Shown here piece after piece: positions 1-48,489 of a stretch of DNA of 48,489 nucleotides (its first letter is position 1; the number at the start of each line of letters is the position of its first letter). The stretch covers positions 1 to 48,489 of IMG/VR virus record IMGVR_UViG_3300025168_000012; one strand, given 5' to 3'. The position numbers and the translations under genes are program-made. This DNA is from a virus. A model generated the notes under the pieces. It did no database searches and had not been told where the DNA came from. It saw nothing but the letters and a program-made list of their open reading frames with translations.

Positions 1-100
1 CCAAGAGCAGCCAAGAGCAGCCAAGAGCAGCCAAGAGCAGCCAAGAGCAGCCAAGAGCAGCCAAGAGCAGCCAAGAGCAGCCAAGAGCAGCCAAGAGCAG
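1..100. repeat. Left terminal array of ten 10-bp direct repeats
   Basis: Ten perfect head-to-tail copies of CCAAGAGCAG fill the first 100 bases. The same unit ends the window (48449-48489), so the first and last 41 bases are identical. This is seen directly. It fits a circular genome cut in the repeat, a terminally repetitive linear genome, or an assembly that ended in an unresolved tandem repeat. The copy number in the real molecule may differ. Confidence 0.97.
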
Positions 101-210
101 CTAGCAGACGCACGAGAATCGTTTGTGAGCGATTTTATGAGGTTACCCTATGCCTACCCATAGGTTAGATAGGGCGGACAGCTTAGAACGTCGATACTTT
201 CGAATAGGCA
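101..210. other. Non-coding left-end segment with one small hairpin
   Basis: No convincing gene was found between the terminal repeat and the terminator of the first leftward gene. A small dyad is visible: CCTATG at 147-152 and CATAGG at 159-164 around a 6-base loop. No consensus promoter was seen. It probably belongs to the terminal, packaging or junction region together with the right-end non-coding DNA. Confidence 0.5.
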
Positions 211-45012: not shown

Positions 45013-45981
45013 TTAAGCCGCTAGTAGGAAGTTATTCATTACTTCACTTGCCTTGTCAGTTCTGCGTTGCATCAAAGCTATTTTATTTTTAGACGATGAT
45101 GGTGCGTGAGTAGACCAGTCTGTAATTGTATTATAAACTGACCACAAGTTCGGTCCCATTTGTGGTGCGTAATGATTATGATACTTATCCATCAAATATT
45201 TCAGAGTACGATTAGTTATGTTATCGCCCCAGCTAATATCTTGAACATCATCCTTGTAGTTCGCTACGTTTGCAAATATTTCTAACACTAACCGTCCTGC
45301 CGCAGGAGTATTGTATAGCTCATGCCATAACTCTATTTCATCTTCAATGATATTTGCTGCCTTGCCTAACACCGATACACCTAAGTCTATATCAAGTTTG
45401 TTTGTGTGTCGAGATTTGTAAATGGAGGCAGGGTTTCGTATAAATATTTGTGAATTCAGACATGCTGCCTGATGAAAACCCAAGGATAGAATAAAACTCC
45501 ACACTCCATTGAAACTTGATAGCGCCATGACCTTAATATTACCTGTGTCTCCATCAGGTGTTAAGTATTTCTTACAGGGTAGTGTGTATTCGACAAGACA
45601 CATACCTCCGTTGGGAGATACAGATATTCTTTCTTGAATACCTGTAGCGTCGAGGTTACAACGCTCAATCATGTCCCTAGTTTTATCTATCATCGTAGGA
45701 TATTGAATAGGTTTATAACGTAGCCCATGAATTGCGATAGGTTCGCCTGTATCCTCACGATAATAAACTTCTTTGGAGTTGTAACTTCTCAGTGTGCCAT
45801 CTATATCATTTGAGAATGGAGTGAATTGTCCTATCCGTGGACCTGCGAACAGCCGTACAGATTTAGAATCCTCAATCTGATATATCACCTTAGCTTTCTT
45901 CACGTTAAAATCCGCATCTCCATAGCCATTTTCACGTAGCCCTTGGACTGCTTCAAAGTTACTATTCAATGTATGTAGCAT
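45013..45981 (-). CDS. DUF932 phage/plasmid-like protein
   Basis: 322 aa, the usual length for the DUF932 family. The C-terminal block with NTITDWSTHAPSSSKNKIA followed by RRTDKASEVMNNFL is characteristic. The family is found in phages and plasmids, often as an abundant early gene; function is not established, though a link to replication or host takeover has been proposed. A strong CGGAGA box is present. A leftward promoter candidate (46034-46063) lies 53 bases upstream, and the repeat array at 46161-46266 lies beyond that. Confidence 0.88.
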   Translation of the reverse strand: MLHTLNSNFEAVQGLRENGYGDADFNVKKAKVIYQIEDSKSVRLFAGPRIGQFTPFSNDIDGTLRSYNSKEVYYREDTGEPIAIHGLRYKPIQYPTMIDKTRDMIERCNLDATGIQERISVSPNGGMCLVEYTLPCKKYLTPDGDTGNIKVMALSSFNGVWSFILSLGFHQAACLNSQIFIRNPASIYKSRHTNKLDIDLGVSVLGKAANIIEDEIELWHELYNTPAAGRLVLEIFANVANYKDDVQDISWGDNITNRTLKYLMDKYHNHYAPQMGPNLWSVYNTITDWSTHAPSSSKNKIALMQRRTDKASEVMNNFLLAA

Positions 45982-46033
45982 TTTGTATCTCCGTTAGTTA
46001 AAATAAAACCGCCCTTCAACGACGATTGCAAAC

Positions 46034-46063
46034 AGCCTAACACACCCCGGAACCGCTTGTCAA
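46034..46063 (-). promoter_or_regulatory. Leftward promoter candidate before the DUF932 gene
   Basis: Read leftward: perfect TTGACA (46063-46058), 18 bases, TAGGCT (46039-46034), which keeps the T, A and final T of the -10 consensus. It is moderate in strength. It lies back to back with the rightward promoter at 46090-46118, recalling the divergent pair at 2126-2202. Confidence 0.55.
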
Positions 46064-46089
46064 CCCCTTGGCGAATATTAAAGTAGGTA

Positions 46090-46118
46090 TTGACAGCCAT
46101 TTAAAAATATGCTATAGT
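46090..46118 (+). promoter_or_regulatory. Rightward sigma70 promoter into the 10-bp repeat array
   Basis: TTGACA at 46090-46095, 17 bases, TATAGT at 46113-46118 (five of six). Transcription would start near 46125 and run into a small hairpin (46127-46142), then the repeat array, antisense to the leftward genes beyond it. No rightward gene follows, so the product would be non-coding. Confidence 0.82.
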
Positions 46119-46160
46119 TTTTTTCAAAACTCTTTAGAGTTTCTTTATAAAAAAAACAAC

Positions 46161-46266
46161 AAGAACTCTAAAGAACTCTAAAGAACTCTAAAGAACCTTA
46201 AAGAACCTTAAAGAACCTTAAAGAACCTTAAAGAACCTTAAAGAACTCTAAAGAACCTTAAAGAAT
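46161..46266. repeat. Ten 10-bp tandem repeats, origin-like
   Basis: Three AAGAACTCTA, five AAGAACCTTA, one AAGAACTCTA and one AAGAACCTTA units run head to tail from 46161 to 46260, with a partial eleventh. The period equals one DNA helical turn. The array is followed by about 80 bases almost wholly A and T (46261-46345) and preceded by the rightward promoter. Iterons next to AT-rich DNA and a promoter are the usual parts of a replication origin; the role is inferred. Confidence 0.93.
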
Positions 46267-46305
46267 CTTTGTAACTCTTTAATATATAAAGAATTTAATA
46301 AGTTT

Positions 46306-46448
46306 TTAAAGTTCTTTAAAAGGTTTTAAGAAACTATTTTTTATTTGTTTCAGTAGATTAGCTTTGTCCTTACGTGAATAATCCTTTTTAGATTTATGTG
46401 AATGAGATTTCTTTAGAATCTCTGGACTCCCTACTTGCTTTTTCATTT
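46306..46448 (-). pseudogene. Possible small Lys-rich gene interrupted or frameshifted at A7
   Basis: The ATG at 46448 lies 11 bases after a GGAG. The zero frame stops after five codons, just past a run of seven A (about 46438-46445). In the -1 frame the sequence stays open for about 45 codons (KKQVGSPEILKKSHSHKSKK, then a Lys/Asn-rich end) to a TAA at 46306-46308. This is either programmed or accidental -1 slippage on A7, a one-base sequencing or assembly error, or a broken gene. The product would be about 47 aa, very basic. Confidence 0.4.
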
Positions 46449-46452
46449 TTAA

Positions 46453-46666: not shown

Positions 46667-47506
46667 TTAATTCCTCTTCATTATGTCATGAAACTCTTTT
46701 AAGTTTGCCAGAGTAACAAAGAAAGAATTAGAAATCAAATTTTCTTGTCGTCTCTGAGCTTTATTTGAACCTTTACGTTTTAAACTACCTAATAAATCGC
46801 TTGGGTCGAGATGTCTCAGGTCATTCTCATCAAAGGATAATATATTTGGAGGCAATTGCAAGCCATCATCCTTCAAATTCTTTGTATTAAATGCCATTGC
46901 AATTCTATAATCACGTTGTAGTGCCTTGCGTAATGCGTTCTTCGATTGCTTGGTATACATAGAACCACTAAAAGTTAAATCATAATTTGTTTGAACATTT
47001 TTGCGTAGCCTACTTAATACTTTAGTATAATCATAGAACATTGAGTTCGGTCGTTGCGCTATAATATACTCAAAGTCTATATCACTTGTACCATTTAATC
47101 TAAAGAGTGCAGGTAGGTTATCACGTTTCGCTTTTCGCTCTGCACTATCTATTTCAATAAGTAATTGCTGATTAAACCAATTGTTTCTGAGTAAATATAA
47201 AATAGTCTTTTTTGTTGTGGCATTTTGAGCTGGCGTCATACCTAGCTGACCACTCGAAATTAAACAATCACGCTTACATCCAGATGCATCAGCGCCACTA
47301 CATAAAGTTTTCATTGCTACCTTATCTGCCGGTTGCAGATACATGATGTAAGTATTAAATTTAGCAGAACCCATTTCCGTTTTAGTACCAGTACCAAATA
47401 ACTTCATAGATTCATTTAAGTAATCTAAGTTGTCATATGCCCAGACCTTTGCGGTTTGCTGTAGCTTGTCGCTATTGTGTATTTCTTTTGTAGTTATATT
47501 AAACAT
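46667..47506 (-). CDS. Gp88-like protein with cysteine cluster, 279 aa
   Basis: After an N-terminal region, GSAKFNTYIMYLQPADK leads into a cluster of three Cys (69, 77 and 81: CSGADASGCKRDC), then SGQLGMTPAQNATTKKT and RLNGTSDIDFEY. This order resembles the Gp88-type phage family, whose first part binds a metal or Fe-S cluster through such cysteines and whose function is unknown. The C-terminal part is basic (KRKGSNKAQRRQ). GAGG seven bases upstream supports the start. The family likeness is by eye. Confidence 0.65.
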   Translation of the reverse strand: MFNITTKEIHNSDKLQQTAKVWAYDNLDYLNESMKLFGTGTKTEMGSAKFNTYIMYLQPADKVAMKTLCSGADASGCKRDCLISSGQLGMTPAQNATTKKTILYLLRNNWFNQQLLIEIDSAERKAKRDNLPALFRLNGTSDIDFEYIIAQRPNSMFYDYTKVLSRLRKNVQTNYDLTFSGSMYTKQSKNALRKALQRDYRIAMAFNTKNLKDDGLQLPPNILSFDENDLRHLDPSDLLGSLKRKGSNKAQRRQENLISNSFFVTLANLKEFHDIMKRN

Positions 47507-48172: not shown

Positions 48173-48290
48173 CTCCATTAGAAATTCAATGAGACTCCAT
48201 TAGAAATTCAATGAGACTCCATTAGAAATTCAATGAGACTCCATTAGAAATTCAATGAGACTCCATTAGAAATTCAATGAGACTCCATTA
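48173..48290. repeat. Five 22-bp tandem repeats upstream of the first early gene
   Basis: Five exact 22-base units of CTCCATTAGAAATTCAATGA plus GA run from 48173 to 48282, with eight further bases of a sixth. The period is two helical turns. On the leftward strand each unit carries a Shine-Dalgarno-like AATGGAG and a 4-codon mini-frame; the last unit provides the ribosome binding site for the 39-aa gene. A regulatory or binding-site array is likely. Confidence 0.93.
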
Positions 48291-48448
48291 GCGCAAAAAA
48301 GTCAAGCATGGTCGAAAAATAAAGACAAGCGTAGTCAAAACAATAGCTTGCAACGCTCGAACTGTTCGACCGAGACGACACACTGCCACATCTTGGCGTG
48401 TGCTGTCAAGTCTCCAAGAAACCCTAGCAAAATCAACAGCTTGGGTAG
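48291..48448. other. Non-coding right-end region with TTGAC boxes
   Basis: No gene supported. On the leftward strand TTGACA (48409-48404) and two TTGACT (48338-48333 and 48305-48300) occur. Only the last has a possible -10 at the right distance (TCTCAT at 48282-48277), so a leftward early promoter here is weak and unproven. A short dyad TCGAAC...TTCGA lies near 48357-48367. It probably forms the right half of the end or junction region. Confidence 0.4.
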
Positions 48449-48489
48449 CCAAGAGCAGCCAAGAGCAGCCAAGAGCAGCCAAGAGCAGC
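48449..48489. repeat. Right terminal copies of the 10-bp repeat
   Basis: Four perfect copies of CCAAGAGCAG plus one base end the window, identical to its first 41 bases. The array begins abruptly after GGGTAG. If the molecule is circular or the ends overlap, the junction would hold one longer array of about ten or more copies. Confidence 0.96.

Follow-up and report, generated by a model that had tools for sequence, protein, structure and literature searches.

A strong promoter opposed to the early genes and the least stable DNA of an uncultured phage genome as a candidate replication origin

The window studied here is the complete 48,489-bp virus record IMGVR_UViG_3300025168_000012 (positions 1 to 48,489). 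Within its early region, a strong extended -10 sigma-70 promoter on the + strand (46090-46118) is antisense to the early genes and points into an A/T-rich block of low duplex stability (46119-46346). We propose that these two parts make up a replication origin, the former acting as origin promoter and the latter as DNA unwinding element, fired by host RNA polymerase; judged on sequence features, this reading has a slightly better than even chance of being correct. It is favoured because the promoter and the easily opened stretch behind it are kept among relatives, and because the make-up is that of T4 oriF/oriG and of the T7 primary origin.

In the window, the structural genes (terminase, SU10-like portal, capsid) form a rightward block. 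The leftward block encodes a replisome of T7-like type, with a polA-type DNA polymerase, a primase-helicase, a gp2.5-like SSB, an endonuclease and ribonucleotide reductase. A search for T7-type RNA polymerase (PF00940) gave no match in the window and four long relatives (G000-G003, G007), while the same search was positive in another record, G011. Because no such polymerase was found, firing is attributed to the host enzyme. The two genome arms are separated by back-to-back near-perfect sigma-70 promoters at 2126-2202, used here for comparison of strength: that of the leftward early operon (2126-2154, - strand) scores 12/12 and that of the rightward terminase and structural block (2174-2202, + strand) 11/12. 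This pair is also kept in G001, G002, G005, G006 and G007. By primase, the nearest isolates are only ~45% identical, and no near DNA match to the early region was found. A search for the host through bacterial genomes did not find it and returned one weak match, and a literature search found no described replication origin for this virus group.

The rightward promoter at 46090-46118 reads TTGACA-17-TATAGT, with a TG extended -10 and a hexamer score of 11/12, in agreement with an earlier note on this DNA, which had called it near-consensus. The same note stated that no gene lies on the rightward strand, and this is correct for ORFs of at least 60 aa at the element. It also placed a leftward promoter back to back with the rightward one. 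This promoter, belonging to the DUF932 gene (46034-46063, - strand, TTGACA-18-TAGGCT), is the weaker of the two: it has a perfect -35 at 46063-46058 and an 18-bp spacer, and its -10 matches the consensus in only 3/6 positions, but the same gene is also preceded by sense promoters in relatives (L002-L016). The DUF932 protein gene itself occupies 45013-45981 (- strand); in all relatives that carry it, about 1 kb at most separates it from the element. Its product had no match among 50,697 phage records. A gene for a GP88 family protein is located nearby (46667-47506).

For comparison, about 20 related viral loci, mostly fragments, were used. Among those fetched through the DUF932 protein, every checked locus with enough upstream sequence has one strong intergenic promoter beside the DUF932 cluster, antisense to the early genes; the distant DUF932 member L128 (38% identity) shows only weaker promoter matches. 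Hexamers and 17-bp spacing are constant in this promoter, whereas the sequence of the spacer varies widely, as illustrated by TTGACATTTACTTCAAGGGAGTGTATAAT in L112 and TTGACAAATACTTTTTAAACCTGTATAAT in L118; in L112-L121 the promoter scores 12/12 with an unrelated spacer. Only three promoters of G001, a 44.7-kb record, reach 12/12, namely the antisense one and the two of the divergent early/late pair. Nearly all other strong promoters point in the sense direction, and those flagged as non-sense are mostly located beside spurious ORFs or represent the rightward terminase promoter. Neighbour genes of the element are not conserved. Both of its flanks (45013-46450 and the corresponding segments in relatives) form an insertion hot spot, and in L003, L004, L006, L011, L012 and L027 unrelated small genes separate the element from the DUF932 gene.

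Duplex stability was calculated from nearest-neighbour energies in 200-bp stretches, and also over 120 bp immediately following the promoter. The 200-bp minimum of the entire genome (46144-46343) lies inside the A/T-rich block. The 200-bp minimum falls at the element also in G001, G002, G003 and the G006 fragment, and in G005 the element ranks third, at the 0.9 percentile. In each of the seven lineages, the outgroup L038 excepted, these 120 bp rank among the 0.6% least stable of their locus. Other strong promoters are found mostly at 2-93% of the stability distribution, with one exception at 0.8% in G006; because most of them occupy such unremarkable percentiles, low stability is not merely a property of promoters. 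On the loci compared, the combination of promoter and low-stability DNA is limited to one clade, because in the outgroup L038/G004 the promoter is present and the A/T-rich DNA absent, and G007 is without the antisense promoter. Both of these cases point against the origin reading, as does the GC3 skew of leftward genes, which gives no signal, being unchanged from one side of the element to the other (0.102 vs 0.114 in the window and 0.088 vs 0.118 in G001).

The main rival explanation, less probable but deserving serious weight, assigns the conserved promoter to antisense transcription or interference. Rightward transcription from 46090 would collide with early leftward transcription or make antisense RNA, and its role would be to lower expression of the variable early genes or to insulate the DUF932 and replication genes from read-through. 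The antisense direction of the promoter in every relative and a strength equal to that of the main early promoters are in accordance with this, as are the hairpins at the transcript start, long and perfect in L112 (z -5.6) and milder in the window (z -2.5). Against it, z-scores for folding of the rightward transcript span -5.6 to +2.7 across relatives, so that RNA folding is not conserved, and the genes opposed by the promoter belong to several different, unrelated families. In addition, the DNA directly following the promoter was found to hold no rightward terminator, and the explanation does not predict the least stable DNA at exactly that place. Because the opposed genes vary and folding is not conserved, a cis-acting DNA site fits better than an antisense RNA. 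A structured antisense RNA or a non-coding RNA gene was rejected on the same lack of conserved folds together with an Rfam search in which nothing exceeded the gathering score. In L112 and L114-L116, the antisense transcript starts with a long inverted repeat, TAGAATCTTTTAGAACTCTT, whose arms of ~20 bp match perfectly.

If the element is an origin, host RNA polymerase would start at the 46090-46118 promoter and run rightward, in the direction opposite to the early genes, entering about 200 bp of A/T-rich sequence predicted to open more easily than any other in the genome. The transcript may stay hybridised there as an R-loop or may be processed, priming the rightward leading strand, and the opened strand would allow assembly of the T7-like primase-helicase and polymerase of the phage. 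From the arrangement of the element we infer the transcription, the formation of an R-loop or primer, and the origin activity.

The primary origin of T7 is primed or activated by transcription from adjacent promoters, which are those of T7's own RNA polymerase. An A/T-rich cluster is present at this origin (PMC12839067). The element is like it in having an A/T-rich region downstream of a promoter, and the polymerase, primase-helicase, SSB and endonuclease of the phage are T7-like; it is unlike T7 in that no phage single-subunit RNA polymerase (PF00940) was found. In T4, oriF and oriG combine a promoter with an A/T-rich DUE and have little mutual homology; their R-loops need no specific sequence, and the R-looped transcript primes DNA synthesis (PMC3016281). 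The element resembles these origins of ~100-200 bp, in which the downstream A/T-rich unwinding element is not conserved in sequence (PMC3016281), since its strong promoter stands directly upstream of the proposed unwinding element and its downstream A/T-rich DNA likewise lacks a conserved sequence. Unlike in oriF/oriG, its promoter faces against genes. Moreover, T4 uses MotA-dependent middle promoters and a T4-type replisome, whereas the element combines a plain host sigma-70 promoter, possessing a full -35 hexamer, with a T7-like replisome and an R-loop that we infer. The element is thus said to work like transcription-primed origins of the T4 and T7 type and to belong to neither, because its promoter neither depends on MotA nor serves an RNA polymerase of the phage.

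A broader statement can be made for the clade of uncultured phages that have a T7-like replisome and are without their own RNA polymerase. In them, a consensus-strength host sigma-70 promoter facing against the early genes might serve solely for origin opening and priming, with firing hard-wired to host transcription; we consider this possible, at somewhat under an even chance. If true, a gene-less strong promoter pointing into the least stable DNA of a genome would be a signature that could locate origins in uncultured phages by sequence alone, and a T7-like replisome would be started by host instead of phage RNA polymerase. It would also follow that a conspicuous repeat array next to such a site is not necessarily its functional part.

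Such an array is located behind the promoter in the window. The earlier note had described an origin of the iteron type with an RNA primer or activation transcript, built of ten 10-bp repeats in helical phase and a tail almost only of A/T. The ten repeats are indeed there, followed by a partial unit (46161-46269), with the unit AAGAAC(CTC/CCT)TA. Identity at lag 10 is 93% over 90 bp, and because 500 dinucleotide shuffles reached at most 53% at any lag from 7 to 14, the array is not due to chance. Its period is 10.0 bp and not 10.5, and therefore the phase drifts by about half a turn across the array. The tail (46270-46345) is 86% A/T but not gene-free, as a conserved leftward ORF of 46 aa (46306-46446, - strand; MKKQVGSPEILKKSH...FKEL), with homologues in L027, L010, L011 and L012, has its 3' end within it. 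When the position was compared in relatives, the antisense promoter, the A/T-rich DNA and its stability minimum were found to be kept in seven lineages, while the array was absent from L027 and L003, which leaves the transcription part of that description standing and the iteron part without a conserved array.

In L027, whose DNA polymerase is 99% identical to that of the window, the A/T tail is nearly identical and the place of the array holds only AACAAGAACTCTAAAGAACCTTTGTAAC, about one unit. L003 is also without the array, two or three repeats of 27-34 bp occupy its position in L004-L006, and L002 terminates within what may be an array. Exact searches of viral contigs gave two short, apparently unrelated matches or none, and a longer stretch of the array had no match elsewhere; the array-like matches in L105 and L106 looked unrelated and were set aside. 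The array is therefore a private feature of the window genome and, with about one unit in L027, none in L003 and no other match, most plausibly a recent tandem expansion, starting from a short motif that the unwinding region already contained. The short form in L027 may instead be a collapse in short-read assembly, although L003 points the same way as L027. Within the origin reading, the array may tune opening and would not be required.

An iteron-type origin, or a centromere-like site, at which an initiator or partition protein would bind the 10-bp array cooperatively, is improbable. Ten nearly perfect units beside a promoter recall iteron-controlled plasmid and lambdoid phage origins, where direct repeats lie beside A/T-rich DNA; short motifs, among them AGAACTCT and TCTAAAGA, are found again at the same place in several relatives, and the longer repeats of L004-L006 occupy that place too. 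The shared motifs may reflect common descent only, the repeats differ in unit length and sequence between relatives or are missing, and the scan of the proteins, in which several early ORFs fell into no family, recognised no initiator of the iteron type. On present evidence, the element does not count as an iteron origin. The least probable explanation is that of A/T-rich intergenic DNA under no selection, with tandem repeats formed by slippage and a leftover promoter adjoining, for although the 10-bp array is private and other perfect arrays in the window (1-101 with 48447-48489, and 48173-48291) suggest that the phage accumulates tandem repeats, a TTGACA-17-TATAAT promoter with changing spacers and a stability minimum would not be expected to persist in seven lineages without selection.

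As to these other arrays, a perfect 10-bp tandem array, CCAAGAGCAG, is found at both ends of the window, which overlap by 41 bp. The map probably closes into a circle, with the contig broken within a single array. The intergenic array at 48173-48291 is a perfect 22-bp tandem repeat in 5.4 copies (CTCCATTAGAAATTCAATGAGA), with a period that would also suit iterons.
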